Of a DNA stretch of 64,000 nucleotides, positions 187-51,337 are shown piece after piece; positions within the stretch are counted from its first letter, which is position 1; every line of letters starts with the position of its first letter. The notes under the pieces are model-generated. The model did not search any database. It was given only the letters and a program-made list of their open reading frames with translations, and was not told where the DNA came from. Source of the DNA: an uncultured Spirochaetales bacterium (GTDB lineage Bacteria > Spirochaetota > Spirochaetia > Sphaerochaetales > Sphaerochaetaceae); NCBI GenBank assembly GCA_944388965.1, contig CALXKL010000017.1:1-64000 (forward strand), in the 5' to 3' direction. The translations under genes and the position numbers were made by a program.

Positions 187-1587
187 TTAATGACGGGAAA
201 CCTCTCTGGACTCCCTCCGAACAGAAAGGATATCCACAGCAAGATAAATTGCATACGCAAACAGATAAATGAAAAAACCTGTCTTAAGATCAAACAGATT
301 TGCAGAAACAAAGAAAGCGCTAGCTAATATGACATCGGCAAGAACTTCCTTTTTTAGAGAGATTCCAATCAACTTTCCGACAATATTCTCAGACGCAATG
401 GAAATCAATGCAATGGCGGCTACAACAGCGATAAGGACAAGAATCATGTTATCCAAGACGAATGCTGATAGGGCATAAAGACAGATTGCAATCACCGCAA
501 ACAGGATGTTAACAAACAACATTGTCTGCTCTTTCCTGTACGCCTTGAGATAGTTGTTAGTAAGAAGATTGATCCTAGCAGAAAACACAATATAAGGAAG
601 AAGAATTCCCCAACATGACAGGCTGGGTAGATAGGAAGGCAACCACAACGCCAATATGAAATAACCAGGGAAATACAGCAGAAGCACACCAAAGAGGAAA
701 CGTGATGATATCCGCCTCAAGCCAACATAGAAGTCAGAATACTCACTCTTATCCATTCTTTTCAATGACGGAAATAGAACTACACTGATTGCAGAAATAA
801 AAGTTAAAAACAATGAGGATAGGCTGAATGCAAATGATATCTGACCGAAGACAAGCGTGCCCCAATGCCACTGTATCATCATCTTCGCACTGCTTATCAG
901 CAACATGGAAGAGAAATTGGCAAGCATCAGCTTGGCTCCAGCAAGAAAGCTCTCCTTTATATCCGTCAAAGCATATCCAAACGATTCAGGCTTGCCGAAA
1001 AACGCTTCCTTGCACATGCACATGCAATAAATTATTGCAAACAAATCACTTGCAAGGTCAACCAAGCAGAAAAGTTCAAATCTCTCGAATCTGCTAACCA
1101 GTGCGGCAACGACAAGGCCCCCAAATACAACCCTATGCATCACGACTAGGCGTGCATATCTGGAAATCTGATTGGTTATCTGCAGGAGAAAAGAAGAATA
1201 CGCGAAAATGTTTTTACTGATCAGCCCAATTGCTACCATGGAAAAGATTCTTCTGTTTTCAGAAGAATCAAAACCGATTGAAAATAGTAAGAGGAGAATA
1301 GAAAGCAGACTTTCCAAGCACAACAGGAAAAAGAAATGCGCGCTGACACGCCCCTTGTCCAACTTGTCATAGTCATATTGCGAGAATCGCAGAACCATAC
1401 CATCAAGAATGCCAAAATGAAAAACGCCAGCATAACCAACATACAGTACATAGGTCTGCCAATATGCATATTGAATCTCAGGGATGAACTTGGGAACAAT
1501 CAATCCTGTTATAAAGCTGACAGCTAATGATATGACCTGTGCTGAAACCGAATATAGGATGTTCCTTTTCGCAAGATTTGCCGACAT
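187..1587 (-). CDS. Wzx-type polysaccharide flippase (MATE/MOP superfamily)
   Basis: A 466-residue, strongly hydrophobic protein with about 12-14 predicted membrane segments, the usual size of Wzx/RfbX O-unit and capsule-unit flippases. Members carry lipid-linked repeat units across the cytoplasmic membrane. It starts with NLAKRNILYSVSAQVI, the usual entry into the first helix, and has the few charged loops expected. Its ATG overlaps the stop codon of the rhamnose reductase gene, so it is translationally coupled as the last complete gene of the polysaccharide locus. With the EpsG-like polymerase upstream it suggests Wzx/Wzy-type assembly. The family assignment is firm; which glycan it moves is inferred from the neighbours. 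Confidence 0.85.
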   Translation of the reverse strand: MSANLAKRNILYSVSAQVISLAVSFITGLIVPKFIPEIQYAYWQTYVLYVGYAGVFHFGILDGMVLRFSQYDYDKLDKGRVSAHFFFLLCLESLLSILLLLFSIGFDSSENRRIFSMVAIGLISKNIFAYSSFLLQITNQISRYARLVVMHRVVFGGLVVAALVSRFERFELFCLVDLASDLFAIIYCMCMCKEAFFGKPESFGYALTDIKESFLAGAKLMLANFSSMLLISSAKMMIQWHWGTLVFGQISFAFSLSSLFLTFISAISVVLFPSLKRMDKSEYSDFYVGLRRISSRFLFGVLLLYFPGYFILALWLPSYLPSLSCWGILLPYIVFSARINLLTNNYLKAYRKEQTMLFVNILFAVIAICLYALSAFVLDNMILVLIAVVAAIALISIASENIVGKLIGISLKKEVLADVILASAFFVSANLFDLKTGFFIYLFAYAIYLAVDILSVRRESREVSRH

Positions 1588-2483
1588 CAGCCCTCTTTTC
1601 CCAATCCAATAAGATATCTCTTCAGCGCATCCTTCCAGTCAGGAAGAGGAGTGAATCCGTTCTTCACCAGCTTCGACTTGTCCAGCCTGCTGTTGAAAGG
1701 TCGCTTCGCCTTCGACAGCCCATACTCCGCCGTCGATACGGGAATCACCTTCACATCCCTACCTGCCTGCCTGAATATCTCCACGGCGAAGTCGTACCAC
1801 GAGATGTATCCGCCTTCGTTGGTCGCATGATAGTAGCCGTATCTATTGGAAAGGATCATGTCCACCAGAAGCCTTGCAAGATCCAGGGTGTATGTGGGCG
1901 TTCCTATCTGGTCGTCCACCACCCTCAGCTCATTATGGGTCTCGGACAGCCTAAGCATCGTCTTGATGAAGTTGTTTCCATTCGCTCCGAACACCCAGGC
2001 TATCCTGACGATGAAGTACCTCTCCAGAATCGAGGAGACGGCAAGCTCCCCTTCCATCTTCGTCTGTCCATAGTGGTTCAGAGGTGCATAGTCCATGCAG
2101 TCCGGTTGCCAGGGGTCACTCCCCTGTCCGTCGAACACATAGTCGGTGCTGATGTACATCATCACCGAGTCCAGATCCTTGCACACCCTGGCGATGTTTT
2201 CGGTTCCCACCGCATTGATCAGATGCACCTTCTCCCTGTTCGCCTCGTCCTCGGCGGCATCCACCGCGGTCCATGCGGCACAGTGGATCACTGCATCCGG
2301 CGAGACATCAGTCAGCACTCTTCTGACGGCATCTGGATCGGTTATGTCCAGCTGTCGATATGCATAGGGTGTGTCGAGCGTCTCGTGGATGTCGCTACCG
2401 ACGGCCTCGATGCCTCTTCCGGCAAGCTCGTCCATAACGTCATGTCCGAGCTGTCCTCCGACTCCGGTGACGAACACCTTCAT
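1587..2483 (-). CDS. rfbD: dTDP-4-dehydrorhamnose reductase
   Basis: Last step of dTDP-L-rhamnose synthesis: reduces dTDP-4-keto-L-rhamnose with NAD(P)H. The 298-residue protein has the Rossmann start VFVTGVGGQLGHDV, the STDYVFDG segment and a YGQTKMEGE active-site YxxxK, all typical of RfbD. The start was placed at the ATG at 2483, which gives MKVFVTG and overlaps the end of rfbB by four bases; a longer upstream frame would add 31 residues absent from the family. Gene order on the strand is rfbA, rfbC, rfbB, rfbD. Confidence 0.95.
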   Translation of the reverse strand: MKVFVTGVGGQLGHDVMDELAGRGIEAVGSDIHETLDTPYAYRQLDITDPDAVRRVLTDVSPDAVIHCAAWTAVDAAEDEANREKVHLINAVGTENIARVCKDLDSVMMYISTDYVFDGQGSDPWQPDCMDYAPLNHYGQTKMEGELAVSSILERYFIVRIAWVFGANGNNFIKTMLRLSETHNELRVVDDQIGTPTYTLDLARLLVDMILSNRYGYYHATNEGGYISWYDFAVEIFRQAGRDVKVIPVSTAEYGLSKAKRPFNSRLDKSKLVKNGFTPLPDWKDALKRYLIGLGKEG

Positions 2484-3508
2484 GCCTTCACCTTCCCCGA
2501 GTACATCCTGTCGTAGTAGTTCATGTACTCTCCGGAGATGATCGGTCTCCACCAGCTCTCGTTCTCCAGATACCACCTTATTGTCTTGACTATTCCGTCA
2601 CGGAACATGGTCTCGGGAAGCCACCCGAGCTCGCTGTGCATCTTCGCCGGGTCTATCGCATACCTCAGGTCATGCCCCTTCCTGTCGGCGACATATGTGA
2701 TCAGGCTCTCCGGCTTCCCCAGCTCCTCCAGGACGAGCCTCACTATGTCGATGTTCCTCATCTCGTTGTGCCCGCCTATGTTGTACACCTGGCCGACACG
2801 CCCCTTGTGGATGATCAGGTCTATCGCCTTGCAGTGGTCCTCCACATACAGCCAGTCCCTCACGTTCTCACCCCTGCCGTATACGGGAAGAGGCCTGTCG
2901 GACAGCGCGTTGATGATCATCAGCGGTATCAGCTTCTCCGGGAACTGGTAGGGCCCGTAGTTGTTCGAGCACCTCGATATCGTCACCGGAAGCCCATAGG
3001 TCCTGTGGTATGCAAGCACAAGAAGGTCCGCCCCAGCCTTGGAGGACGAATACGGACTGGACGTATGCAGCGGAGTGTCCTCCGTGAAGAACAGGTCCGG
3101 CCTGTCCAGGGGAAGGTCGCCGTACACCTCGTCGGTGGACACCTGATGGAACCTCTTCACGCCGCACCTCCTGGATGCATCCATCAGCACAGACGTGCCT
3201 ATGATGTTCGTGCGCAGGAATATCTCGGGGTCCTCTATGCTCCTGTCCACATGGCTCTCCGCGGCGAAGTTCACAACGACATCCGGCCTCTCCTCCTCGA
3301 AGAGGGAGTAGACGAGATCCCTATCGGCGATGTCGCCCTTCACGAAGCGGAAGCCCCCGGCATCCAGCACGCTCTCAAGCGTGGACAGGTTGCCTGCATA
3401 CGTGAGTGCATCCAGGCACACGATCCTGTCCTCGGGGTGCGCCTCCATCATGTGGAAGATGAAGTTCGATCCTATGAAGCCGGCTCCTCCGGTCACGAGA
3501 ATGGTCAT
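2480..3508 (-). CDS. rfbB: dTDP-glucose 4,6-dehydratase
   Basis: Second step of dTDP-rhamnose synthesis: converts dTDP-glucose to dTDP-4-keto-6-deoxyglucose. 342 residues in an extended SDR fold. It shows the NAD-binding TGGAGFIGSNF at the start, the HVDRSIEDP and STDEVYGDL motifs of the active site, and YSSSKAGAD with the catalytic YxxxK. Start chosen at 3508 (MTILVTGG), which overlaps the rfbC stop by four bases; the longer frame upstream would add 32 residues that do not look native. Confidence 0.96.
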   Translation of the reverse strand: MTILVTGGAGFIGSNFIFHMMEAHPEDRIVCLDALTYAGNLSTLESVLDAGGFRFVKGDIADRDLVYSLFEEERPDVVVNFAAESHVDRSIEDPEIFLRTNIIGTSVLMDASRRCGVKRFHQVSTDEVYGDLPLDRPDLFFTEDTPLHTSSPYSSSKAGADLLVLAYHRTYGLPVTISRCSNNYGPYQFPEKLIPLMIINALSDRPLPVYGRGENVRDWLYVEDHCKAIDLIIHKGRVGQVYNIGGHNEMRNIDIVRLVLEELGKPESLITYVADRKGHDLRYAIDPAKMHSELGWLPETMFRDGIVKTIRWYLENESWWRPIISGEYMNYYDRMYSGKVKA

Positions 3509-4071
3509 ATCCGGTCTCCTTCGTATGTGAAATTGCAATCGCTGTCCTTCAGGAACGGCGAGGTGGTGTCCTTCTGGGATAGGATGGGGTTCTCGACTCC
3601 CCACTCCACACCGATATCCGGGTCGTTGAACCTTATGCCCCTGTCATGTTCCCTGCTGTACAGGTTGTCCACCTTGTACACAAACTCGACGTCATCAGTG
3701 AGCGTGACAAACCCGTGTCCGAAGCCTCTGGGTATGTAGAGCATTCTCCTGTTGTCAGCACTCAGCTCGACACCCACCCACTGTCTGTACGTCGGAGAGC
3801 CCTTCCTCAGGTCCACCGCCACATCCAGCACGGCACCACGTATGACCCTCACCAGCTTTGCCTGCGCCATGGGGCCGTTCTGGAAATGTATGCCTCTCAG
3901 CGTGCCCTTCTCCTTCGTGTACGACTGGTTGTCCTGCACGAACACGGCATCTATGCCCAGCTCATGCAACACCTTCGTCGAGTATGTCTCCATGAACCAG
4001 CCCCTGTGGTCGCCGAACACCTCCGGCTCCAGGATGCATACGCCTTCAAGCTTCGTATCGATCCTCTTCAT
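3505..4071 (-). CDS. rfbC: dTDP-4-dehydrorhamnose 3,5-epimerase
   Basis: Third enzyme of the dTDP-rhamnose pathway, a small cupin-fold epimerase of 188 residues. Family motifs seen are DHRGWFMETY near the start, QDNQSYTKEKGTLRGIHFQ with the catalytic His, and IPRGFGHGFVTL. Two bases separate its start from the rfbA stop and its end overlaps rfbB, so the four rfb genes form one tight unit. Length and motifs are normal for the family. Confidence 0.96.
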   Translation of the reverse strand: MKRIDTKLEGVCILEPEVFGDHRGWFMETYSTKVLHELGIDAVFVQDNQSYTKEKGTLRGIHFQNGPMAQAKLVRVIRGAVLDVAVDLRKGSPTYRQWVGVELSADNRRMLYIPRGFGHGFVTLTDDVEFVYKVDNLYSREHDRGIRFNDPDIGVEWGVENPILSQKDTTSPFLKDSDCNFTYEGDRI

Positions 4072-4073
4072 CT

Positions 4074-4958
4074 TCAGTACCTCACCTTGCCTTCGACGAC
4101 CGTCCTCAGATACTCCCCGTACGGCGACTTGCCATACAGCGCGGCGCTCTCGAGCAGACGCTCCTCGTCTATCCAGCCGTGCCTGTATGCTATCTCCTCG
4201 GGCGAGGAGATCATCATGCCCTGTCTCAGCTCGACCATCCTCACGTAGTCAGATGCATCCAGCAGGCTGTCCATCGTCCCCGTATCCAGCCATGCGAAGC
4301 CCCTTCCAAGAAGCTTCACGTCCAGAAGCCCCTCGTCGAGGTACATCTGGTTGAGGGTGGTTATCTCGAGCTCCCCTCTTGCAGAAGGCTTCACATTGTC
4401 CGCCATGGCGGATACGCCTGCCGGATAGAAGTACAGACCGGTGACCGCATAGCTGCTCTTGGGTTCCACCGGCTTCTCCTCTATGGAGATGACCTTCTCG
4501 TCCTCGTCGAACTCCACCACGCCGAACCTCTCCGGATCCTTCACGTAGTAGCCGAACACCGTGGCTCTACCGTTCTCCGCATTCGCCTTCGCAGAGCGGA
4601 GTATCGTTCCGAACCCGTTGCCGTAGAAGATGTTGTCTCCAAGTATCATCGCACAGGAATCGTCCCCGATGAACCCACGGCCTATGATGAAAGCCTGGGC
4701 AAGTCCGTCCGGAGACGGCTGTACTGCATACTCGAGATGGATACCGAACTGGCTCCCATCTCCAAGCAGGTCCTCAAAGCGCGGAGTGTCCTCCGGCGTC
4801 GAGATGATCAGGATCTCGTCGATTCCTGCAAGCATCAGCGTCGAGAGCGGATAGTACACCATGGGTTTGTCGTACACCGGCAGCAGCTGCTTCGATGTCA
4901 CCCGCGTCAACGGATATAGTCTGGTGCCGGCTCCGCCGGCAAGGATGATTCCCTTCAC
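4074..4958 (-). CDS. rfbA: Glucose-1-phosphate thymidylyltransferase
   Basis: First enzyme of dTDP-rhamnose synthesis: joins glucose-1-phosphate and dTTP to make dTDP-glucose. 294 residues, a standard length. The nucleotide-binding loop [20 protein letters not shown], the [18 protein letters not shown] segment and LGDNIFYG are typical of RfbA/RmlA. It is the first rfb gene on the strand. Directly upstream (towards 4971) base composition drops sharply to AT-rich, so a boundary between two sources of DNA probably lies here. Confidence 0.97.
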
Positions 4959-4970: not shown

Positions 4971-5589
4971 TCAGTTTTTCAGAGGCAACCATGATAAATC
5001 TGATTCCTCTGGATTCCTATAAAACTTATTGAGGTTAAGCTCAATAAAACTCTTATCAATCCTCGAATAATCTATTTTCATCAACCGAGCGATTGTACCT
5101 TGTGAGAATCTATACTTAATGTGCCTTGCAGGCACCCCCCCCCCAGACTGCATAAGGAGGAACATCATGAGTAACCACAGCGCCAGTTGCGATTATCGCC
5201 CCCTGCCCGATGTGAACCCCAGACATGATTCTGACATCATTACCAATCCATACATCGTCATCAACAACAATATCACCTTTCGATATTGCCTCTGGTTTGT
5301 GATCAATCAGTTTTGCTTTGAAAGGATATGTGGATATAAAGTCAGAATGGTGCTCATTATTGAGAACAAATGTGACATCGTTTCCAATTGAACAGAAGTG
5401 GCCAATCTTCAGATGTGATATGGAATTAGATGAAGAAACATTGATTGCACCATATGTATAATTTCCAACCTCAACCAATGAAAAATCGAACATTTTGTTG
5501 ATAATTGTGAAATTATTCTTGTTCAACATGCGCCAGGACTTTTTCGCCCTTATTGTTCTCATTTGTCTCATGAAATAACCAGCGATCAT
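4971..5589 (-). CDS. CatB/LbH-type O-acetyltransferase, split by a G10 tract (probably phase-variable)
   Basis: A left-handed beta-helix acyltransferase of the CatB/xenobiotic acetyltransferase type, likely to add acetyl groups to the surface glycan. The first 149 residues are normal, with hexapeptide repeats such as VWIGNDVRIMSG, but at a run of ten G (C on the plus strand, 5135-5144) the frame is lost and translation ends at 5116 after 157 residues. The expected continuation, GVPARHIKYRFSQG, lies in the next frame and runs to a stop at 4971. Nine G (or twelve) would join the two parts into a protein of about 205 residues, the usual family size. As sequenced the gene is in an off frame. A sequencing indel is the alternative, but long G runs at such a spot are the hallmark of slipped-strand switching. 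Confidence 0.85.
5135..5144. repeat. Homopolymer C10 (G10 in the coding strand), slippage tract
   Basis: Ten consecutive C on the plus strand inside the acetyltransferase gene, at the codons for the conserved GGVPA turn. Loss of one base restores the full reading frame. Confidence 0.95.
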
Positions 5590-6497
5590 GAATTCCCCCT
5601 ACAAATTGCAATGAGATCTCCATACCAGGTCCTCCATGTAGGATAGTATGTCAAGCCACAAGAAAGGATAGACAGCCACCGAGCCACCGATTTCTTTTCA
5701 AGAGCATTCAATCTCTTCGAAAGAAACTCCTTGCATCCATACAGACCCTTAATTTTATCAGAATCAAGATTCGAAGAAGATTTGTCCAACAATGAAGCAA
5801 CAAAATTAAGGTGTGATTTTGTGTCCTCAATACGCTTTTCCAGAAGATAACTTCTCTTCCCTGTGGCATTGAAGCCATGAATCCTATGCTCAATCAATGG
5901 CTCATCTACATATGCTAGTTTTCCAAAAAGCAGGAGCATTGCTTGTATGAATTGATCATGAGCCATAAGCGGATTCCACAACTCAAGATATTTTTCTACA
6001 AACTCTTTTTTTACAGCCATCGCGGCTCCGACTTGCTTAGTGTAGTAGAATTTTCTATCGAAGGTATATTTGTTTGAAATAACCTCGCCAGAAAAATGCC
6101 CATGAGTCAACGGTGTCCCAGACATATCTATATTTAAACACCCAGTCACCACCCCTTCCGCTTTAGTACAAAGCATAGCATCTAGCGACTTTTCTATCTT
6201 GGTTGGCATCCATATATCATCCTGATCACAAAAGAAAAGCACGTCGCCAGTAGCAATTTCCACCCCATGCATGAACGAAGCCTTCCAGCCCAGATTCTTC
6301 TCGTTTCGAATGCTTCTCATGAACGGATACTTTCTCACATACCCTTCGAAAATCTCTTGAGTAGCACCTCCATCTGTAGAACAATCATCAATCAGAAGTA
6401 CCTCATCAGGGCACATTGTCTGCTGAACAAGTGAATCAAGCTGGCACTCAAGAAATCGGCTGCCATTGTAAGCAGACAAAATGACACTTATCTTCAT
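5586..6497 (-). CDS. Family 2 glycosyltransferase
   Basis: A 303-residue GT-A fold glycosyltransferase acting on the cytoplasmic face, where it would add one sugar to the lipid-linked repeat unit. The N-terminus MKISVILSAYNGSRFLE and LLIDDCSTDGG are the GT2 nucleotide-sugar-binding motifs, followed by FFCDQDDIWMP, the DXD metal site. The C-terminal third resembles the rhamnosyltransferase-like branch (H-x(n)-GHRIHG type pattern, here IEHRIHGFNATG). Start taken at the ATG at 6497; the longer frame would add 33 hydrophobic residues that belong to the overlapping polymerase gene. Being close to the rfb genes, rhamnose is a plausible donor, but this is a guess. AT-rich like its neighbours. Confidence 0.88.
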   Translation of the reverse strand: MKISVILSAYNGSRFLECQLDSLVQQTMCPDEVLLIDDCSTDGGATQEIFEGYVRKYPFMRSIRNEKNLGWKASFMHGVEIATGDVLFFCDQDDIWMPTKIEKSLDAMLCTKAEGVVTGCLNIDMSGTPLTHGHFSGEVISNKYTFDRKFYYTKQVGAAMAVKKEFVEKYLELWNPLMAHDQFIQAMLLLFGKLAYVDEPLIEHRIHGFNATGKRSYLLEKRIEDTKSHLNFVASLLDKSSSNLDSDKIKGLYGCKEFLSKRLNALEKKSVARWLSILSCGLTYYPTWRTWYGDLIAICRGNS

Positions 6498-6499
6498 CG

Positions 6500-7600
6500 T
6501 CAAACTCCAAGAATCCAGTTGCTCGAAAAGAATGGCACAACAATCGAATCCCAGTGAAACGCATAAGTAGTGAAAAAACCAATGACTGTAGCCCAAAGGA
6601 ACATCAGTACCTTTATGAGAACTTTGGATTTACTTTGAAAGTACTCACTATAAGCCACAGAACAAGAAATAAACGGAATTAAACAAATATCTCTCGTTAG
6701 CCTATTAAGCGTTGATTGGAACCTGAAAAGGGGGAAGAAAAAAAAACCATACAGAGACACGAGTACAAAGAAACGCAAAATCTTTCTGCTCTGCAAATTT
6801 AAGCGTTTTGCCTTTCGATAGAGAACCATACATATCAAGGTGCCGCACACATGCTGAAACATTGGAACAAGATGTCCAAACCTAGTATGCGACCCAGTAT
6901 ATTCCAAGTAGAAGGATAATCCCAATAAATCAAGCATGCTAGACAACATACTGACCAAGGCTGACTGGCTAATGATCAAAGACAAGAAGCAGTATAACAA
7001 AATTAAAATTATACCAATCTGCAATAGAACCTTTTTCTGTGTTATCTTCGAGAAGATTACAAATGGTATAAAGACAATGAAAACAATGTGACAGCCACAA
7101 GCTAGAAGAACACAAATTATGTATTTGGTTTCATTGTTCTTCCCTTCATCAGGTTGCAGGAAAGCAAAACCTAAAAGGAGAAAGCACATTCCCAAGAAGT
7201 TATATGTCTGGGTACTATCCATCAGCAACAATGACAGTGCATAACAAATCAGAAGGAATAATGGCTTTTGAGTAAATTTAAGCATTGCCTTATATAAGAC
7301 AAAATAGCCTAAGGAATATATTGCCAAACGAAATCCATAGTATGAAACACCAGCAAGCTGAAATATATGGACCAGAATAAAATATAGGAATGCCCCTTCC
7401 TCAACACTTCCACTGTTATAATAGTTATTGATGTAATTTTTTATATCCGGGTTATCACTATTTCCTCCAACAAGAACTATAAACAGAAGCAGACATAACA
7501 ATGAGAAGAGCTTGTTCCATGTCAATTCAACGCAAGTGCCTCTGCCAACTTGTTTGCCCAAATACAAAGAAACCTGTTTCATTCTCATACTTATGGACAT
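6500..7600 (-). CDS. EpsG/Wzy-like polysaccharide polymerase
   Basis: A 366-residue integral membrane protein with about ten membrane helices. The sequence NSDNPDIKNYINNYYN after the first helix matches the (N/D)PDxxNYxxxY pattern of the EpsG family, which polymerises repeat units at the outer face of the inner membrane. It is the only polymerase candidate in the locus and sits between two glycosyltransferases. The gene has no clear ribosome-binding site; ATGs at 7600, 7588 and 7582 are all possible starts. A run of nine T in the coding strand (near 6740, encoding Phe residues) could also slip. Confidence 0.8.
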   Translation of the reverse strand: MSISMRMKQVSLYLGKQVGRGTCVELTWNKLFSLLCLLLFIVLVGGNSDNPDIKNYINNYYNSGSVEEGAFLYFILVHIFQLAGVSYYGFRLAIYSLGYFVLYKAMLKFTQKPLFLLICYALSLLLMDSTQTYNFLGMCFLLLGFAFLQPDEGKNNETKYIICVLLACGCHIVFIVFIPFVIFSKITQKKVLLQIGIILILLYCFLSLIISQSALVSMLSSMLDLLGLSFYLEYTGSHTRFGHLVPMFQHVCGTLICMVLYRKAKRLNLQSRKILRFFVLVSLYGFFFFPLFRFQSTLNRLTRDICLIPFISCSVAYSEYFQSKSKVLIKVLMFLWATVIGFFTTYAFHWDSIVVPFFSSNWILGV

Positions 7601-7640
7601 ACAATGGAAAAAAAGATTTGGGAACTCTTTGCAATACTAC

Positions 7641-8813
7641 TCAGCATAGGACCTGCCTCATAAATCTTACTCGCCTATCAGTCAATACATCAGCATCATA
7701 CTCATGACTCTTTTTAATATTTCTCTCAGCCTGCATAGTAGCAAAATCACCTTCATCAATAATCTTCTGGATAATCTTTGCGATGGTGTTGCAACTTCTT
7801 TTTGGGAAAAGAACTGATGCATCTAACAGCTCGGGGATACCGCCCACCCTGGTCCCAGCACAAGGGATGCCGCAACTCATGGCTTCAACTAGAGACCGCG
7901 GTAATCCTTCTGTAAGACTTGGCTGTATATACATATCCAATGATTTGTACCATTCAAAGACATTATCATGCTTTATATTTCCAACGAAAACAACTTGGCT
8001 CTCGACGCCAGCGGCAACCGCCATATTCTTTAGATAAGTCGAATCTCCCGGACCTGCAATCTGATATTCAATGCAATCAATCCCCTTCCTTTTCAATTTT
8101 CCAAGGGCTCTTATCACAAATTGTTGTCCTTTGTACTTAACATTGACAGCACCAGCAGTACCTATGACAAAGCGAGTACCGTTACTTTTGTCCTTTAATC
8201 TTAGTTCATCATCAACTTGTCTCTGATGTCTGAGCAACCTTACATTTGAGCAGTGTATAGATCTCCCTGATGTAGGATATCTTTGCTGAAGAAAATTCTC
8301 AGAAACATAAACGACATTTTCAGCTTTTTTTACTGTCTTCCGCATCTTGAGAAAAAATGGCACTGCCAAGACTTTCCCCTTGATTCCATGGTTCCAATAT
8401 GCATCAAATGTACACCCGACAACTTCAACAAGATTTTTCTTGCCTAATTCGTTCGCTATTCGTGTGGCGTAACAGATACCAGGCAATCTGTTTATTACAG
8501 CATCTGCAGCCTTAACTGCGTCATACAGCTTTTTCCGTGTTTCCCTTCTTTCTCTCAAACTAAAGAAATCGAAAACAGAAGCGAACCGATTTGGGATTGA
8601 AATAAAGTTGATACATTCTGGAAGTAAATTATACCTTTTCTCCATGGCTTTACGAGGATAGCAATTTGGCTCGGCCTTCATAACAACTGTTATTTCGGAA
8701 AAGACGGAAAGATAAACATCCCAGACTTCTTTTGTATACCCTCCACTAGTATATCGATTTCCTTCATCATCATAACGGATCTCCCCGCCAGAATGGATAA
8801 ATACCAATTTCAT
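7641..8813 (-). CDS. Family 4 glycosyltransferase
   Basis: A 390-residue GT-B fold enzyme of the GT4/GT1 group. The C-terminal domain carries FVIGTAGAVNVKYKGQQ, the donor-binding start of the second Rossmann domain, and QPSLTEGLPRSLVEAMSCG, the E-x7-E motif that binds the nucleotide sugar. It would transfer a sugar to the growing lipid-linked unit in the cytoplasm. It starts one base after the ATP-grasp gene stop, so the two are coupled. The acceptor and donor cannot be read from the sequence. Confidence 0.87.
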   Translation of the reverse strand: MKLVFIHSGGEIRYDDEGNRYTSGGYTKEVWDVYLSVFSEITVVMKAEPNCYPRKAMEKRYNLLPECINFISIPNRFASVFDFFSLRERRETRKKLYDAVKAADAVINRLPGICYATRIANELGKKNLVEVVGCTFDAYWNHGIKGKVLAVPFFLKMRKTVKKAENVVYVSENFLQQRYPTSGRSIHCSNVRLLRHQRQVDDELRLKDKSNGTRFVIGTAGAVNVKYKGQQFVIRALGKLKRKGIDCIEYQIAGPGDSTYLKNMAVAAGVESQVVFVGNIKHDNVFEWYKSLDMYIQPSLTEGLPRSLVEAMSCGIPCAGTRVGGIPELLDASVLFPKRSCNTIAKIIQKIIDEGDFATMQAERNIKKSHEYDADVLTDRRVRFMRQVLC

Positions 8814-8814
8814 T

Positions 8815-9852
8815 TCATACTCTCCTTGTCAACATCATCAAAATTTGACCATGCACATCAATAGCCTCATTATGACAAACACCACCTCTCGTCCAATAGC
8901 ACCCCGCATCTTTCACCGCATCTGCATCAAAGCCATAACTCATTTCAATGATCATGGGCTTCTTCGTTTTACTGTCAATTACAAAATCATATCCCATGCA
9001 CTGACATCCAATAGCGTCTGATGCTTGGAATGCAACATCAATGAGCTCCTTTGTTATAACTGACTTATCATAATAGAATGCTCCACCACCAGAAGCTCTA
9101 AAGTCATGTTTCCGAATATGTCTGCAAAAGAACGAGAGCTTACCATTACAGACTACGACCTTAATATCATATCCATCGTTTGGAATGAACTCCTGGAAAT
9201 AGCAATACCCTCTTTCCCTTGGAAGAAGCTTTCCACCTCGTCTTGTACGCAGAAACTCCGGAATCCTCTTGAACCTTGATACGAATGTCTTCCAATCATG
9301 TGTCGACTGGATCTTCGAGAACGACTTGTAGACAAGACTCGGAGCAGGGTTATACCCTTTGCCAAACATCCTGTTCGCATATCGTACAGCTGCACCATAT
9401 GAATCCAGCTTCTTTACATTGTTTGCACCGGAGCCGGCTTTGAGCTTTGCGATAATCGGATACGTTGCACTCTTCAGATACTCTATGCAATCGGCTTTGT
9501 TGAAAAAGGCCACACTGCTCGGGATTGAGGCACCTACGGCCTGTAGGAGATACATCTCCGCAATCTTGTCGTCGAAATGATATGCCGTATTGTAGTCAGG
9601 GAACGTAGAAACGCCTTTCCTGCTGATTGCATATAGGATGTTCCTAGCCTCCATCATATCCCTTGGTGAATAATTTCCAAAATGCCATAGAACGGCACTG
9701 TACTTCTCACATTCTGGAACAAGAGATGGATCATAACCATCTACCACCTCATATGGTATGCCATTCTCTTTACATATCTCGATCCATTTGATTGACCAAT
9801 TGGTGGAATGGATCTTCCTGTCCTTGTCCTGAACTATTGCTACTGGCTTCAT
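8815..9852 (-). CDS. ATP-grasp carboxylate-amine ligase-like protein
   Basis: A 345-residue protein with the ATP-grasp fold: YPIIAKLKAGSGANNV (ATP-lysine and glycine loop), YCYFQEFIPNDGYDIKVVV (glutamate contacts) and GYDFVIDS...PMIIEMSYGFD near residues 290-315 (Mg-binding acid residues). The family joins an amine to a carboxylate using ATP. It lies between an asparagine-synthase-like gene and a glycosyltransferase in a locus predicted to make GalNAcA, so it may link an amino acid or amine to a uronic acid of the glycan. That role is inference; the fold is well supported. Confidence 0.75.
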   Translation of the reverse strand: MKPVAIVQDKDRKIHSTNWSIKWIEICKENGIPYEVVDGYDPSLVPECEKYSAVLWHFGNYSPRDMMEARNILYAISRKGVSTFPDYNTAYHFDDKIAEMYLLQAVGASIPSSVAFFNKADCIEYLKSATYPIIAKLKAGSGANNVKKLDSYGAAVRYANRMFGKGYNPAPSLVYKSFSKIQSTHDWKTFVSRFKRIPEFLRTRRGGKLLPRERGYCYFQEFIPNDGYDIKVVVCNGKLSFFCRHIRKHDFRASGGGAFYYDKSVITKELIDVAFQASDAIGCQCMGYDFVIDSKTKKPMIIEMSYGFDADAVKDAGCYWTRGGVCHNEAIDVHGQILMMLTRRV

Positions 9853-9896
9853 ATCTCCATCCTTTGGAATCGAACAGAGATACGAGCCTCACAAGA

Positions 9897-11888
9897 TTAT
9901 TCTTCTGGAGAGACGGGATTCTGTCCGTTAAAATCCTTGCTCAAGCAGCTTTCATCATGCTGCTTCTGCCCCCCACAATGCGTCTGAAATAGCAGTCCGT
10001 TTACAGTTGTCTTAACATTTTTCATCTTCTCAAACCAATTCTGGAAAACCAGGAAAGTCCATAATTCACTCGTCCTGTTACGCCTGTTCTGCAAATGTTC
10101 TTCAGCAGTAGAGGAAACCATGGCGGGATTAAATAATCCCTGAGACAAAATATAATCCTTATTGCAATAGAATGATAATTTATCACGAAGGACAGTTCTC
10201 ATCCATTCTCCGACAGGCACTCCAAATCCGTGTTTTGAGGCATGGAATAATTCATCCGGCAATAAATCCTTGAAAGTGTCCTTGAGAATAATCTTCCTTT
10301 GTTTGTCGTTGATTTTGAATTCGTCCGGCATACTGAAGGCAAGCTCGATCACATTCGTATCCAACATTGGAACACGCGTTTCAACAGATGCAAGCATGGA
10401 GGCTCTATCCACCTTGGTCAGCATATCACCTTCAAGGACAGTTTTCATATCCACGTATTGGGTCTTGGCCTGGTCAGAAGCATCAAGATAATCATACTGA
10501 TCTTTTATGAATTGCATATCATCAACAAATCCATCCTTCGTCAAATGATGCATTTCTTCTTCCTTGAACCCGAGCATCATCATCTGCTTGTGTTGAGAGA
10601 ACAGATCCTTTCCACTGGCGCTGATTACCTTGTTCGCTTTTCTATATATCGGACTGTTTACTGGAAGCTTATGGACAAACGGTTCAATCAATCCCTTTCT
10701 AATAAACATCGGAATTCTTTCGTATTTCTGTCCATAATAGGAAATGAGATATTTGTTATAACCTGCAAACAGTTCATCGCCAGCATCGCCAGTCAATACG
10801 ACCTTCACGTATTTTCGTGCCATCTTTGACACCGCATACGTTGCAAGCAATGACGAATCGCCGAAAGGTTCGTCTATATTGTCTAGAACGGTGTCCAAAT
10901 CGGATAGAACATAATCCCAGTCCATGGTCAATACATGGTGATTGGTCTTGTTCTTCTTCGCTACAAGATTAGCCAATGCGCTCTCGTCGTATTGCTTCTC
11001 CTTGAATCCGATAGTGAAAGTGTTCACAGGTTGTGATGAAAGATGCGACATAATCCCGACAATAATCGAAGAATCAAACCCACCACTCAAAAAGGCACCA
11101 ATAGGGACATCGCTTACCATTCGCTGTTCGACCGATTGGAACAGCGCTTCTCTGAGCTTTTTCTTCGACTCAGCAAAACTTAGTCCGTAATCATGTCCAA
11201 TGTTTCTATCCAAGTCCCAGTATTGTTCGAAAATGCACTTCCCGCTGCTATCGATTTTCAGCCAATGTCCAGGCACCAGCTTGTATACATTCTCATAAAT
11301 CGACAGCGGAGCCGGGATATATGTCAACTGAAAGTAACGAGAGAGTGCTGTCCTGTCGATTTCCATCGGAACAAGACCAGATGCAACCAAACTTTTGAGT
11401 TCTGAACCGAATATGAAATACCCTTTTCCCTGATGATAATACAGCGGCTTCTCCCCAATCCGGTCACGGGCTATATACCATTCTCTTTTTCGACAATCGT
11501 AGATTGCAAAGGCGAACATCCCCTCCATCTGCGTCAGGAACTGTGGACCATACTCTTCAAACCCATGCAGTACCACTTCCGTATCAGAAGATGTATAGAA
11601 CGAATGTCCCTTCTTAACGAGCTGTTCTCTCAATTTACGAAAGTTATACAGTTCACCATTGAAGACGATCACCATATCATGTCTCTCATTCCAGATCGGC
11701 TGATTTCCTGTCGCAAGGTCAATGATGGATAGTCGTCGCATTCCCAGTGCGCAACGCGTATCAGCAAAGAGTCCTTCTGCATCCGGCCCTCTGTGAACGA
11801 TCTGGTCATTCATTACATGTACACGGTTCTTTAACTCCAGCTCCGAGAACATGTTCTCGAATTGAATCAGTCCGTTGATTCCACACAT
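9897..11888 (-). CDS. Asparagine-synthase-like glutamine amidotransferase (WbpS/AsnB type)
   Basis: A 663-residue two-domain enzyme. The N-terminus begins MCGINGLIQ with the catalytic Cys2 of class II glutaminase, followed by NGELYNFRKLR and the SSDTEVVLHGFEEYG segment. The synthetase domain has the ATP-pyrophosphatase loop LSGGFDSS and the GDAGDELFAGY motif. True AsnB makes asparagine, but homologues in polysaccharide loci (WbpS of Pseudomonas aeruginosa O6) amidate hexuronic acids. Here the gene directly follows the tviC/wbpP-like epimerase with a one-base overlap, so amidation of GalNAcA is the likely job. About 30 residues at the C-terminus are extra and Cys/Gln-rich. Confidence 0.88.
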   Translation of the reverse strand: MCGINGLIQFENMFSELELKNRVHVMNDQIVHRGPDAEGLFADTRCALGMRRLSIIDLATGNQPIWNERHDMVIVFNGELYNFRKLREQLVKKGHSFYTSSDTEVVLHGFEEYGPQFLTQMEGMFAFAIYDCRKREWYIARDRIGEKPLYYHQGKGYFIFGSELKSLVASGLVPMEIDRTALSRYFQLTYIPAPLSIYENVYKLVPGHWLKIDSSGKCIFEQYWDLDRNIGHDYGLSFAESKKKLREALFQSVEQRMVSDVPIGAFLSGGFDSSIIVGIMSHLSSQPVNTFTIGFKEKQYDESALANLVAKKNKTNHHVLTMDWDYVLSDLDTVLDNIDEPFGDSSLLATYAVSKMARKYVKVVLTGDAGDELFAGYNKYLISYYGQKYERIPMFIRKGLIEPFVHKLPVNSPIYRKANKVISASGKDLFSQHKQMMMLGFKEEEMHHLTKDGFVDDMQFIKDQYDYLDASDQAKTQYVDMKTVLEGDMLTKVDRASMLASVETRVPMLDTNVIELAFSMPDEFKINDKQRKIILKDTFKDLLPDELFHASKHGFGVPVGEWMRTVLRDKLSFYCNKDYILSQGLFNPAMVSSTAEEHLQNRRNRTSELWTFLVFQNWFEKMKNVKTTVNGLLFQTHCGGQKQHDESCLSKDFNGQNPVSPEE

Positions 11889-12862
11889 TACAGGTTTTCC
11901 CTATACCACTCTATCGCAGCCTTGATTCCCTTCTCAAAACTCCAGTCTGGATCATAGTCAAGCATTGTCCTGGCCTTTGAGATGTCGGCATTGCTATGCT
12001 TGATGTCACCAGCACGATCAGGGCCGAAGGTGGGTTCCATCTTGACACCAAGCGCATCACAGAGTCCGTAATAGATGTCGATCAGGTATTCACGACCACC
12101 ATATGCTACGTTGAACGCCTCACCTGCCGCATCATGAGAAGCAAGGCAGGCCTTGAAATTGGCCTCGATCACATTCTCGATGTAAGTGAAGTCCCTGCTC
12201 TGCTTTCCATCTCCATTGATTGTCGGTCTTTCTCCATTCATCAGCTGTTTGATGAACTTGGGAATGACTGCGGCATAGGCTCCATTTGGATCCTGTCGTC
12301 TACCGAAGACATTGAAGTACCTCATGCCATAAGTATCAAGGCCATAATGCCTTGTATACTGCTTAGCCCATTCTTCATCAGCTCTCTTGGAGACGGCATA
12401 GGGAGAAAGCAGATTGCCCTCTCTGCCTTCCTTCTTGGGAAGTACAGGCTCATCCCCATATACTGAAGAGCTGGATGCATAGACGAACTTCTTCACTTTG
12501 TTCTGTCTTGCAGCTTCCAGCATGTTCAATGTGCCGTTGATGTTGTTCGCACAATAGAAGAGAGGCATCTCGATGGATCTCGGGACACTGCCCCATGCGG
12601 CCTGGTGAAGGACATAATCCACATCTTCACATGCCTTCATGCAGGTATCAAGATCCTTGATGTCACCTTTGATGAACTCATATTTCTCATTACCAGCAAA
12701 CAGGTCAATATTCTCCTGCTTTCCTGTTGAGAGATCATCAAGGCATCTTACCTTGTATCCAAGGTTCAAGATTGCCTCACAGAGATTGGAGCCTATGAAC
12801 CCCGCGCCACCGGTCACAAGAAAAAGCGAACCTTCAGGAAACGATATGTTATGATACCCCAT
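11888..12862 (-). CDS. UDP-GlcNAc 4-epimerase, TviC/WbpP type
   Basis: A 324-residue extended SDR epimerase. It has LVTGGAGFIGSNLCEA for NAD, VLHQAAWGSVPRSI, SPYAVSKRADEEW with the catalytic YxxxK, and YFNVFGRRQDPNGAYAAVIP, which is a hallmark of the WbpP/TviC/Gne group acting on N-acetylated sugars. It should interconvert UDP-GlcNAc and UDP-GalNAc, feeding the dehydrogenase gene just upstream and the PglA-like transferase. Ribosome-binding site GAGGTG precedes the ATG. Confident in family; the preference for N-acetyl sugars is inferred from the conserved motifs. Confidence 0.9.
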   Translation of the reverse strand: MGYHNISFPEGSLFLVTGGAGFIGSNLCEAILNLGYKVRCLDDLSTGKQENIDLFAGNEKYEFIKGDIKDLDTCMKACEDVDYVLHQAAWGSVPRSIEMPLFYCANNINGTLNMLEAARQNKVKKFVYASSSSVYGDEPVLPKKEGREGNLLSPYAVSKRADEEWAKQYTRHYGLDTYGMRYFNVFGRRQDPNGAYAAVIPKFIKQLMNGERPTINGDGKQSRDFTYIENVIEANFKACLASHDAAGEAFNVAYGGREYLIDIYYGLCDALGVKMEPTFGPDRAGDIKHSNADISKARTMLDYDPDWSFEKGIKAAIEWYRENL

Positions 12863-12931
12863 TTCAACACCTCTTCAGAGAAATTGGGGCATGAATGAAT
12901 TCACCATCCACGCCTCTGCTCTTGGTTGATA

Positions 12932-14242
12932 CTACAATCTCCAGTAGGAATAGCCTGCATTCTCATAGGAATCCCTATCGAGAACGCCTTTGATATCCAG
13001 AAGGACCTTCTTGCCAGCGCCGAAGAATCCATCAATATCCTGCATCTGGAATGATTCGAACTCCTTATGGGCAACAGCAAGAATCACCGCATCCATGTTT
13101 CTGATTTCATCCATACCGACGAACTCGACTCCATAAAGCCTTCTGGCCTCATCTGCATCAGCAACAGGGTCGGTGATGGCGGGATTGATGCCATACTCCT
13201 TGAGCTCGTTAACGATGTCGATGATCTTCGTGTTGCGTGTATCAGGGCAGTTCTCCTTGAATGTAAATCCAAGAATTGCAACCTTTGCATTCTTGACCGT
13301 CTTGTCTGCCTTGATGAGATTCTTCACACAGTTCTCTGCAACATACTTGCCCATATCGTCATTGATACGTCTGCCGGAAAGTATTATCTGACTATGATAT
13401 CCAAGCATCTCCGCCTTGTATGTCAAATAATACGGGTCTACACCGATGCAGTGCCCACCGACAAGTCCTGGCCTGAAGTTCAGGAAGTTCCACTTGGTTC
13501 CTGCTGCCTTGAGGACAGAAAGAGTATCGATACCCATCTTGTTGAAGATGATGGACAACTCGTTCATGAAGGCTATGTTGATGTCCCTCTGGCTGTTCTC
13601 GATGACCTTGGCCGCCTCTGCAACCTTGATGCTGGATGCTTTGTAGACACCAGCCTCTACGACAAGCTCATAGACCTTGGCAACGGTATCGAGTGTCTCT
13701 TCATCCATACCGGAGACAATCTTTGTAATAGTTTCCAGCCTGTGGACCTTGTCACCGGGATTGATTCTCTCCGGAGAGTATCCAATCTTGAAATCGACTC
13801 CGCACTTCAGCCCGGATTCCCTTTCCAGGATAGGGACACAGACATCTTCAGTGACGCCAAGATACACAGTCGATTCGAAAACGACTACTGAGCCTTTGGT
13901 AAGGTTCTTGCCTAGAATCTCGCTGGCACCTTCGACAGGAGTGAGATCCGGGGTATGGTCTGCATTGACAGGTGTCGGAACTGCAACGATGTGGAACTTG
14001 GCTTCACGAAGCTTTGATGCATCAGCAGTGAATTTCACTTCCGTCGCCTTGATTGCATCATTGCCAACTTCATTAGTCGGATCGATCCCGCTCTTGTACA
14101 GCTCTATCTTCTTTGCATTGAGATCGTAGCCTACGACATCAATCTTCTTGGCAAAAGCGACGGCAATCGGCATGCCGACATAACCAAGTCCGACAAGTGA
14201 GAGCTTTGTCTTCTTCTCTAGCAACTCTTCATAAAGTTTCAT
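12932..14242 (-). CDS. UDP-N-acetylhexosamine 6-dehydrogenase, TviB/WbpO type
   Basis: A 436-residue UDP-sugar dehydrogenase. It oxidises C6 twice with NAD to give a uronic acid. N-terminal Rossmann motif LVGLGYVGMPIAVAFAKK, the middle EAAKVIENSQRDINIAFMNE, and the active-site region RPGLVGGHCIGVDPYYL with the catalytic Cys. The sequence follows the TviB/WbpO branch (UDP-GalNAc or UDP-GlcNAc substrate) more than UDP-glucose dehydrogenase. Together with the downstream epimerase it predicts UDP-GalNAcA. Its start overlaps the end of the PglA-like gene by four bases. Confidence 0.92.
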   Translation of the reverse strand: MKLYEELLEKKTKLSLVGLGYVGMPIAVAFAKKIDVVGYDLNAKKIELYKSGIDPTNEVGNDAIKATEVKFTADASKLREAKFHIVAVPTPVNADHTPDLTPVEGASEILGKNLTKGSVVVFESTVYLGVTEDVCVPILERESGLKCGVDFKIGYSPERINPGDKVHRLETITKIVSGMDEETLDTVAKVYELVVEAGVYKASSIKVAEAAKVIENSQRDINIAFMNELSIIFNKMGIDTLSVLKAAGTKWNFLNFRPGLVGGHCIGVDPYYLTYKAEMLGYHSQIILSGRRINDDMGKYVAENCVKNLIKADKTVKNAKVAILGFTFKENCPDTRNTKIIDIVNELKEYGINPAITDPVADADEARRLYGVEFVGMDEIRNMDAVILAVAHKEFESFQMQDIDGFFGAGKKVLLDIKGVLDRDSYENAGYSYWRL

Positions 14243-15315
14243 TTTCCAATAGCCTCTCTTATAGCCTTCATGTACTCATCCACCACGATTCTGCGGTCGA
14301 AGTTCTCTTCTACAAATCTTCTACCTTCAATGCCCATATGCTTCCATTCATTCCATGGAAGCAATGCAAACTTATTGCATGCATCGACAACCGCATCTGA
14401 AGACTTCCGAACAAATGAGATTCCGGTCTTTCCATCTTCGATTGCGTCGATACATCCTGCGACATTTGTCGTCAACACCGGTCGTCCCAAAGCATGTGCT
14501 TCAAGTATTACATTGGCCATGCCTTCATGATAGGAAGGGAGGATCAGCACATGGCTCGCAGCAACATTCTTCAATGTCTCGTTATGAGAAAGCCTTCCCA
14601 GATAAGTTATGTTGGGACAATCTTTGAAAGCATCAACGATTGTCTTGTCTTCTCCATCTCCGATTACAGTGAAATGCCAATCAGGCAATCTTTTCGATGC
14701 TTCAATAAACTCCCAATAGCCCTTGTCCTTCTGCACCCTTGCGACAAACGTGCATTCTATCTTTCCTGAATACAACGGGTATTCGGTATAGCGAATTGTC
14801 TCGACATTCACACCCGACCCGGGAAGAAGACGAATGTTCTTCAATCCAAGATGTTCAAACCGTTCGTATGTTTCCCTGTTCTGACAGAAAAGACAGAATG
14901 CCCTCTTGAACATCATGTTCTGAATCTTTGAGATAACACTCGGAACAAGTCCTGATTTGAACAGGAAGGCACTGAGTCCGGTCACATTTGCTATAACAGG
15001 GTATCTTCTTCCACATGCAATGAGCGAATACAGATTGGGCTTGATTGTGAATGTGACGACAGTATTCGGATTGACTTGCCTGATCTGCTTTCGCAAGGCC
15101 AGAACTGTCTTCAACTCTGAAAGAGGATTCGTTCCAAACCGGGAAATACTGTTCCTTACAAACGCTATTCTCTCATCACGCAATTCTTCTGGAAGATTAT
15201 CAGGAATGGAGACAATGATATCATAGCCTTCCTTCTTCAGCTCTTCCAAAAGCTCATGCCTAGTTGAAAGAATGACATTCTGATGATTGCCGACAAATAA
15301 AATACTCGCTTGCAT
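14239..15315 (-). CDS. PglA-like family 4 glycosyltransferase
   Basis: A 358-residue GT-B enzyme. TIKPNLYSLIACGRR and NVTGLSAFLFKSG in the N-terminal half and LPSYHEGMANVILEAHALG (E-x7-E) in the C-terminal half match the PglA/CapM-like group, which adds GalNAc to a lipid-linked bacillosamine-type sugar. That fits the PglC, PglE and PglF homologues further up the locus. Start taken at the ATG at 15315; an upstream TTG at 15327 would add four residues. A decayed partial copy of the same gene lies at about 16975-17215. Confidence 0.88.
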   Translation of the reverse strand: MQASILFVGNHQNVILSTRHELLEELKKEGYDIIVSIPDNLPEELRDERIAFVRNSISRFGTNPLSELKTVLALRKQIRQVNPNTVVTFTIKPNLYSLIACGRRYPVIANVTGLSAFLFKSGLVPSVISKIQNMMFKRAFCLFCQNRETYERFEHLGLKNIRLLPGSGVNVETIRYTEYPLYSGKIECTFVARVQKDKGYWEFIEASKRLPDWHFTVIGDGEDKTIVDAFKDCPNITYLGRLSHNETLKNVAASHVLILPSYHEGMANVILEAHALGRPVLTTNVAGCIDAIEDGKTGISFVRKSSDAVVDACNKFALLPWNEWKHMGIEGRRFVEENFDRRIVVDEYMKAIREAIGK

Positions 15316-15352
15316 GATAGATCTCAAGTTTGGAACTCAACAGTAATTCAGT

Positions 15353-17279: not shown

Positions 17280-17289
17280 CCCCCCCCCC
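17280..17289. repeat. Second homopolymer C10 (G10 on the minus strand)
   Basis: Ten C in a row on the plus strand, about 20 bases beyond the stop codon of the NeuD/PglD-like gene and before the remnant glycosyltransferase. Same length as the tract at 5135-5144. No intact frame spans it, so it may be the leftover of a second switchable gene. Confidence 0.9.
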
Positions 17290-17309: not shown

Positions 17310-17972
17310 CTAACCGAATACCATTCCCTTTCCATTCATACGAACAACCTTGCATGGATTTCCATAAGCCACAACTCCATCCGGAATATCCTTTGTGACG
17401 ACGGAGCCCATCCCGATAATTGAATTGGAGCCGATTCTGATTCCATTTCTCAGGCAGCAATGAGGAGCAATATAGGTGTTGCTTCCAATTACAGTTCCGC
17501 CACCGATGAAATCGAAAGAAGAAATTATGGAGTTATCTCCAATCTGAACACCATGCCCCATCGTCGAAAGAGCCTGAATGAGAACGTTGTTACCTATCTT
17601 GGCTTTTGTCGTCAGACTACAGTATCGGCCTGCAATTATGCCATCACCCAATTCGAGGTCTTTGCCGCATGATACAGTCGGGTGAATCAGATTTGTACAT
17701 CTAAGCCCTTCGGATTTCAGAATCGAGAATATCTTCTCTCTCAGAAAAGGCTCGCCCATTGCAACTATGAACTCGATTCCCTTGTCACCGAACATGTCCG
17801 CCGCAGCATGTCTGGAAAGTATCATACGGCCAAGAAGCGTCGTACCATCCTTTGTTTCATCATCATCAATGAAGACGATGTCTTCCCAGCGATTCTGCTG
17901 TCCCTGAACCAGAGTCGCAACGGTTTCTAATTCCATGCCAAGCCCACTGGCCCCGTAAATTCCCAGTACCAT
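17310..17972 (-). CDS. NeuD/PglD-family sugar N- or O-acyltransferase
   Basis: A 220-residue protein: an N-terminal Rossmann-like domain ([22 protein letters not shown]) followed by a left-handed beta-helix from about residue 95. [18 protein letters not shown] carries the catalytic His-Gly of the family. PglD acetylates UDP-4-amino-4,6-dideoxy-GlcNAc to UDP-diacetylbacillosamine; NeuD-type members O-acetylate sialic acids. With pglC, pglE and pglF homologues in the same locus the PglD role is most likely, although the gene is separated from them by the peptide transporter. Start set at the ATG at 17972 ([10 protein letters not shown]), 13 bases after the CoA-transferase stop. Confidence 0.82.
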
Positions 17973-17985
17973 TTTTCTGACTCCT

Positions 17986-25455: not shown

Positions 25456-26085
25456 TTAGTTCTTTTTCATCCCTCTGAAAGGTTCCATGGTCACAGAACT
25501 TGAAGAGGAGATTCCCTCCCTCTTCAAAACCGTCAGCACTGTTCTGAGTATGATTCTCCAGTCCATGAGAAAGGAGACATGGTCGACATAGTAGACATCC
25601 TTGTCGAACTTGTCCTCCCATGTGATGGCGTTTCTACCATGTACCTGGGCATAGCCGGTGAAGCCCGGCCTTACTTCATGTCGCCTTGCCTGGTGTTCAT
25701 TGTAAAGTGGAAGGTATCTCACCAGAAGAGGTCTCGGCCCCACTATGGACATATCCCCTTTCAGGATGTTCACAAGCTCGGGAAGCTCATCAAGGGATGT
25801 AGACCTGAGAATCTTGCCAAAACGAGTGAGCCGCACATCATCAGGAAGGAGGTTCCCATTTTCGTCCCTGGCATCGCTCATGCTTCTGAACTTGTAGAGG
25901 GTGAAGATCCTGCCATTGAGGCCTGGACGCTCCTGCTTGAAGATCACAGGGGAGCCGAGCTTCGCCCTCACCAGTATTGCAAGCACAAGGAACACGGGGG
26001 ACAGGACGATCAACGCGATAAGAGAGAGTATGAAGTCCTGCGGCCGCTTGATGAATCTTTCGTAGAAGCCCTTTCTGTGTGCCAT
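25456..26085 (-). CDS. PglC-like initiating phosphoglycosyl transferase
   Basis: A 209-residue monotopic enzyme that puts the first sugar phosphate on undecaprenyl phosphate. [21 protein letters not shown] is the re-entrant membrane helix, [19 protein letters not shown] carries the catalytic Asp-Glu pair region, and [24 protein letters not shown] is the family signature. The short form without extra helices matches PglC, which uses UDP-diacetylbacillosamine, rather than WbaP. The last 15 residues are Ser-rich and probably disordered. Confidence 0.92.
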
Positions 26086-26090
26086 GAGAT

Positions 26091-27365
26091 CTATTTGTTG
26101 AAACAGGCCCAGATCACCTCTATGATCCTGTCCTGCTCCTCAGGCGTCATCTTGTTGTCGCTAGGCAGGCAGAGCCCACGGGAGAAGATGTCCATTCCGA
26201 CATCAAGAGGTCTACCGTCCCTTCCCTTCGTTCCACCAGAAATGTAGGCGTTGGTCTTGCCTCTGCCATCTCCATCTCTGGTTACGAACGGATTCATCCT
26301 GAAGACAGGCTGCATGTGCATCGGCTTCCAGATGGGTCTTCCTTCGGCATTGATGGATGCAATGGCGTCAAGAATCTCCGTCGGGCACGACTTGCCATGC
26401 TCCTTGATGTAAAGGGGGTCGGTCTCGCCTCTCACCTGAGGGCACATCGCATCCTTGTCGATTATGAGACAGCTCAACCAATGGTTGGGAACCGAATTCA
26501 CATCATCAAAAGGGTTCATGGATACAGGAAGACCTTTCAGTCCTTCCTTGTATCGGTAGTAGATTGCAGTCTTCTGTGCAATGTGATCGTCAAGGTGCGG
26601 AATCTGGCCGCGGATGACACCTGCAATCACATTGCTCATCCTGTAGTTGTAGCCGATCTCCTCATGCTGGTACCAGGGGGCGTTCTCCCTGGACTGCGTG
26701 GACCACTTGCGGACCTTGTTGGCGACCTCGATATCGTCTGTAAGCAGCATGCCGCCACAGGAGCCTGTGATGATCTTGTTGCCGTTGAACGAAATCGCAT
26801 TGAAATCCCCGAAGGATCCCGTCTGTCTACCCTTGTAGGTAGCGCCCAGGGATTCGGCCGCATCCTCGATGATGATGGCATCATGTCTTTGGCAGACAGC
26901 CCTGATCTCGTCTATCTTTCCGGGGGTGCCGTACAGGTGGGCAACAACGACAACCTTCACATCAGGATGGAGCTCGAAGGCCTTCTCCAGGGCGGCAGGA
27001 TCCATGTTCCAGGTGCCGTACTCGGTATCGATGAATACCGGCACACCCTTTTCATAGACGACAGGATTCACTGTAGCACTGAATGTCATGTCGCTGCAGA
27101 ACACCTTCTGCCCTGACTGGATACCAGCCAGCTTCACTGCCATATGCAGAGCAGCCGTACCTGAGGACAAACCTACGGCATAGCCGACACCGACCTTCTC
27201 GGCAATGAGCCTCTCGACTTCGTTTATGTTCTCGCCGACTGTGCTCATCCAGTTGGTGTCGTAGGCCTCCTGGACATACCTTATCTCCTCCCCATGCATC
27301 GTGGGAGATGAAAGCCATACCTTCTTATCGAAGGGTTTGAAATCATGTCTGCTGTTGTCGAACAT
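26091..27365 (-). CDS. PglE-like sugar aminotransferase (DegT/DnrJ/EryC1)
   Basis: A 424-residue PLP enzyme that would aminate C4 of the UDP-4-keto sugar from the PglF-like dehydratase. [18 protein letters not shown] at the start, [13 protein letters not shown] for phosphate binding, [13 protein letters not shown] with the PLP-contacting Asp, and [16 protein letters not shown] with the Schiff-base lysine are all in place. Slightly longer than usual through an insert near residues 310-345. Six bases upstream of pglC; RBS AGGAT. Confidence 0.92.
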
Positions 27366-27389
27366 TTATCCTACAGACCTCTCTTCATG

Positions 27390-49972: not shown

Positions 49973-49973
49973 T

Positions 49974-50867: not shown

Positions 50868-50870
50868 TGG

Positions 50871-51332: not shown

Positions 51333-51337
51333 ACCGC

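Follow-up and report, generated by a model that had tools for sequence, protein, structure and literature searches.

A G10 tract breaks the frame of an acyltransferase gene in a spirochaetal surface-glycan cluster and is a probable phase-variation switch

The window analysed here, 64,000 nucleotides from an uncultured bacterium of the Sphaerochaetaceae, contains a cluster of glycan-related genes on the minus strand (Table 1). One of them, an acyltransferase gene, is interrupted by a tract of ten G, which corresponds to exactly ten C on the plus strand. The open reading frame (5589->5116) stays in register through Trp149 and then runs into GGGACKAH and a stop. The frame that follows the tract, GGVPARHIKYRF..., stays open until the stop at 4973-4971.

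Table 1. Genes and poly-G tracts of the glycan cluster, in window coordinates.
Feature	Position	Strand	Remarks
Flippase-like membrane protein (Wzx-like)	187..1587	-	Named by reading only; no Pfam/NCBIfam match
rmlD, rmlB, rmlC-like dTDP-rhamnose genes	1587..4071	-	Named by reading sequence
rmlA-like gene	4074..4958	-	Named by reading sequence
Intact C-terminal part of acyltransferase, next frame (VPARHIKYRF...LPLKN)	4971..5144	-	Homologous to CatB/Vat C-termini to residue ~190
Acyltransferase gene as assembled	5116..5589	-	157 aa, cut short at G10; Hexapep PF00132; best NCBIfam matches Vat/CatB families, below cut-offs
G10 tract, proposed switch	5135..5144	-	
GT2 glycosyltransferase	5586..6521	-	Stop overlaps acyltransferase start (ATGA)
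EpsG-type polymerase	6500..7600	-	Intact across A9 run at 6738-6746
GT4, ATP-grasp, asparagine-synthase-like, TviC-like epimerase, TviB-like dehydrogenase, GT4	7641..15327	-	Rest of glycan cluster
Second G10 tract	17280..17289	-	20 bp after stop of NeuD/PglD-type acetyltransferase gene, before decayed glycosyltransferase fragment
NeuD/PglD-type sugar acetyltransferase	17310..17978	-	TIGR03570 above cut-off
PglC/WcaJ-like sugar transferase, LegC/PglE-like aminotransferase, PglF/WbpM-like dehydratase	25456..29722	-	

Translation with different tract lengths gave 205 aa for 9 G and 206 aa for 12 G, and between 157 and 169 aa for 8, 10 or 11 G. Among lengths 8 to 12, only 9 or 12 G join the two halves. 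Apart from the frame break at G10, no lesion is present in the 205 codons. The full-length frame ends 12 nt before the start of the rmlA-like gene (4958). At its other end, its start codon shares bases with the stop codon of the preceding glycosyltransferase gene (ATGA, 5589-5586), an overlap by which the full-length frame fits an operon. The initial annotation had described a CatB-type enzyme in frame for 149 residues and broken precisely at ten G, with the conserved end (GVPARHIKYRF on) intact in the next, undecayed frame and about 205 residues restored by nine or twelve G. This observation is confirmed in each detail that we checked, with both halves intact and the downstream frame open and conserved.

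In terms of family scores, the Vat model of NCBIfam rises from 92.1 bits for the truncated form to 124.9 bits for the 9-G reading. In a comparison with known structures, the read-through protein matches VatD, CatB and Vat(A) at E values of about 1e-28, and the alignments reach residues 187-199. GC3 is 0.41 in the downstream frame and 0.39 in the upstream part, and in shuffled sequences the downstream frame was open in only 54 of 5000 cases (~1%). Judged by these sequence measures, the second half of the gene is real coding sequence.

The hexapeptide-repeat domain PF00132 scores 37.7 bits, above the Pfam cut-off of 27, which places the predicted product among the left-handed beta-helix (hexapeptide) acyltransferases. 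With the CatB/Vat xenobiotic acetyltransferases (3eev, 1khr) it shares the fold family, the hexapeptide repeats, the catalytic-His region and the PAxxxKxRF C-terminal motif. Unlike them, it sits in a glycan operon and stays below the NCBIfam equivalog cut-offs of the resistance families (Vat 124.9 of 300 bits, CatB 109.2 of 350). The protein is thus a relative of these families and, by the NCBIfam test, not a resistance enzyme. The catalytic-His region, in the loop that precedes the S-T-[YF]-P-F motif, is present, with NEHHSDFISTYPF aligned to NQGHRSDWISTFPF of 3eev; His80 is the likely equivalent of the catalytic His, and His81 is a possible alternative. A structure prediction of the read-through protein reached a pLDDT of 39.6 and was not used as evidence.

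The neighbours include a glycosyltransferase, an EpsG-type polymerase and rhamnose genes, which point to a surface polysaccharide as the context. From its family and this neighbourhood, the enzyme would acetylate a surface glycan. GC content is 37-43% in the acyltransferase and the neighbouring glycan genes (4974-9852), compared with 57-58% in the rhamnose genes (1587-4958) and at 45000-64000, a contrast that makes the glycan genes look horizontally acquired. A thiolase-like ORF appears to have been cut short by an insertion at 15353-16953, where its end is overlapped by a transposase-like ORF. A contig of another genome (G011:C16) carries a gene set resembling that at 25456..29722 together with two G10 tracts, one of them at the 3' end of a NeuD-like gene.

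The acyltransferase gene has a GC content of 39%, and runs of at least ten appeared in 5 of 20,000 Markov simulations of it. Synonymous recoding of the protein, with Trp-Gly-Gly-Val required at this place, gave a G/C run of at least 9 in 2.8% of cases, and by this measure the tract itself is only moderately unlikely. The window holds 4 G9 matches against a dinucleotide-shuffle mean of 0.47. At genome scale this surplus of long G tracts disappears, with 13 G9 matches and about 15 expected from dinucleotide shuffles.

As for the assembly, the genome has 17 contigs, the ends of which share exact 77-nt prefixes or overlaps in many pairs. This is the pattern left by a de Bruijn assembler run at k=77, hence by short reads, and in such assemblies a run of ten G is seldom miscounted in the consensus; on the evidence of the overlaps, a long-read homopolymer error was rejected as cause of the ten G. 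We also looked at A9 control tracts in the genome (n=10), where few cases were informative: an intact gene holds one, another coincides with an IS3-like frameshift site and a third lies at a phage-like gene junction. The last (G000:C12:14031-14039) joins two phage-like ORFs (Mu-type portal and head gene) and may be a frameshift site or a plain overlap.

Other poly-G tracts occur in the same genome. G/C tracts of at least 8 number 22, composed of thirteen of 8, five of 9 and four of 10. A G9 (G000:C3, ~19094-19102) splits a DNA methyltransferase, both halves of which are intact and weakly match N6_N4_Mtase; this is possibly a phase-variable methylation gene. One homologue of ~50% identity was found in the genus, with an approximate query in which ~30 residues were guessed. 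The small genes beside the split methyltransferase look phage-like. Two lipoprotein genes are broken right after the lipobox, one by a G10 (G000:C1:205883-205892) and one by a C8 (G000:C11:47540-47547), and in both a long downstream frame is open. Furthermore, a G9 lies in frame just past the signal peptide of an OMP-like protein gene, another G9 is located 5' of a PapD-like chaperone gene, and TTGAC precedes five G8 tracts in an arrangement resembling a promoter, most of them beside lipoprotein genes.

Of the 16 genomes of the genus, 11 contain tracts of G10 or longer. The pattern TTGAC-N0-10-G9 gave 148 match rows, overlapping ones included where the run exceeds 9, in 47 of 139 family genomes, compared with 2 for the reversed pattern. 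At 30 sampled loci, the G run mostly sits directly against a TAnnnT (-10) box placed 15-21 nt from TTGACN, and the genes that follow begin for the most part like lipoprotein genes (MKKxxx...SC). The lipoprotein-promoter layout TTGACA-N8-G9-TAnnnT was seen in at least 4 genera. In the phylum sample of 296 genomes, 69 have the promoter motif, and some families have it rarely or not at all. Runs of 40 G (G043:C76) and 24 G (G017:C83) near contig ends are probably sequencing artefacts, which calls for caution when counting very long G runs.

Several homologous sites differ in tract length, and these differences are between species or paralogues rather than within-strain switching. At the site 5' of the PapD-like gene, the tract is G9 here and G10 in G012, between conserved flanks (ATGC[G]TGAC). 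Related promoters of the form TTGACAAGAGG..[G]TAGCCTTCCAGCAGAAAA have a run of 8 G here, against 9 or 10 G in G014, and near-identical lipoprotein promoters within G050 carry 11, 12, 12 and 14 G. In an orthologous small-protein gene, a C tract at about codon 8 is C12 and in frame in one genome (G030), and C11 and out of frame in another (G032). In G008, a lipoprotein is split at a G10 into open frames of 287 and 615 aa.

Homologues of the acyltransferase itself are distant. With one genome per species searched, none is close, and the best in the family is 46% identical and from another genus. A search of genome contigs returned only an Omnitrophica match (38%) and a weak Segetibacter match. 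The G tract is absent from all homologues readable at the Trp-Gly-Gly-Val motif. Flagellin is absent from the 61 family genomes searched.

In terms of known systems, two phase-variable O-acetyltransferases are among the closest. The meningococcal enzyme PglI is a membrane acyltransferase-3 protein, whereas the protein described here is of the soluble left-handed beta-helix type; NeuO of E. coli K1 switches through a heptanucleotide repeat near its start, whereas the poly-G of the present gene lies near the C-terminus. PglI acts in protein glycosylation and was phase-variable in paired carriage isolates, and homopolymers of at least 7 are reported for meningococcal pilin glycosylation (PMC5445459). 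The likeness is that of a glycan O-acetyltransferase of a surface glycosylation system under phase-variation switching, although variation was observed for PglI and is only inferred here. NeuO is a phage-encoded, phase-variable capsule O-acetyltransferase (PMC13001214); the parallel lies in a surface polysaccharide whose O-acetylation is phase-variable. Our read-through protein also matches, weakly, a polysialic acid O-acetyltransferase with a left-handed helix (3jqy).

Poly-G switching in Treponema pallidum and Campylobacter, to which the initial annotation had appealed, is indeed documented. In T. pallidum tp0126, the poly-G lies between -35 and -10 and activity is best at 17-nt spacing (PMC7864442). 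The tp0126 layout recurs upstream of lipoproteins in the host family. The poly-G promoters of T. pallidum (tp0126, tpr genes) act on transcription, whereas the acyltransferase tract is within coding sequence. In the Campylobacter phasome, tracts are mostly in reading frames, mostly of 9-10 G and in surface-structure genes (PMC6321876), similar to the case here, although the phylum is different and length variation is documented across strains there. The mechanism is therefore of a known kind, as phase-variable glycan O-acetyltransferases and poly-G switching are already documented. Our literature search, incomplete in coverage, found no description of poly-G switching in the host family.

We consider that G10 is quite probably a live slipped-strand phase-variation switch, caught in the OFF state. 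As in other genes of this kind, a G/C tract of at least 7-8 lies within the ORF, a change in its length would toggle between a full and a truncated product with the downstream frame intact, and the lineage has other poly-G loci differing in length at homologous sites. The G runs at surface-protein genes in the same genome and family make a reversible on/off switch the most likely reading. The tract would act as a simple-sequence contingency switch in a surface-glycan operon, inside the gene for an O-acetyltransferase of the left-handed beta-helix type that is related to CatB and Vat. Slippage during replication would alter the number of G. With 9 (or 12) G the frame would be kept and the full enzyme made (ON). 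With 10 G, as assembled, the 157-residue product would keep the putative catalytic His80 and lose the GGxPAxxxKxRF segment and the C-terminus, and would be inactive (OFF). A population would then be a mixture of cells with and without acetylation of the surface glycan. Reversible switching of a surface modification had been proposed from the start, and this part of the claim stands less fully: the assembly type, the intact downstream frame and the poly-G context of genome and family speak for it, whereas length variation at 5135-5144 and the glycan substrate are what we infer.

Three other explanations were weighed. It is unlikely that the ten G are a fixed, recent loss of function, that is, a codon coincidence in the Gly-Gly motif followed by one slip, with no selection for reversal. 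The motif does favour a G run, as the recoding result indicates, long G tracts are not in excess genome-wide, no readable homologue carries the tract, and decayed genes and an IS lie nearby. Against such a loss stand the absence of further lesions in 205 codons with an open and conserved downstream frame, and a lineage rich in poly-G tracts of differing length at surface genes; moreover, G10 runs are unstable in other bacteria.

An error of assembly or sequencing, with a true length of nine G and an intact gene, is very improbable. The short-read de Bruijn assembly, the distance of 5 kb between G10 and the contig end and the intact A9 in the EpsG-type gene all count against it, even though homopolymers of 9-10 are the usual error sites, several of the genome's coding tracts break the frame, and artefact-like runs of 24 and 40 G exist near contig ends in other genomes. 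Little more probable is that transcriptional or translational slippage at G10 yields some full-length enzyme, a leaky or programmed frameshift rather than an OFF state. Long G runs can slip, and a 6-bp hairpin (GUGCCU/AGGCAC; 5118-5135) lies directly 3' of the tract. The 3' fold is nevertheless no more stable than shuffles (z -0.33 and -0.59), and a programmed ribosomal frameshift hairpin is not supported by this test. Inspection by eye showed no such hairpin following the tracts of the methyltransferase and the lipoprotein, and we know of no programmed signal that combines a +1 shift at a G run with a 6-bp stem beside it.

Lastly, most work on poly-G switching concerns pathogens, among them Treponema pallidum, Campylobacter and Neisseria. 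The same poly-G anatomy appears here at scale, in this genome and in a whole related family that is flagellin-less, and this repertoire is more interesting than the single acyltransferase tract. It seems to us an evenly balanced prospect that this probably commensal, largely uncultured spirochaete family has a broad poly-G repertoire, covering lipoprotein promoters, surface proteins, a DNA methyltransferase and glycan-modifying enzymes, and that this genome switches glycan acetylation and possibly a wider, methyltransferase-driven regulon, as known pathogens do. For annotators, split genes of this type should not be called pseudogenes. If reads confirm the switch, surface variation by homopolymer slippage would be a broad trait of the lineage, checkable in existing metagenomes, with glycan acetylation as one of its outputs.
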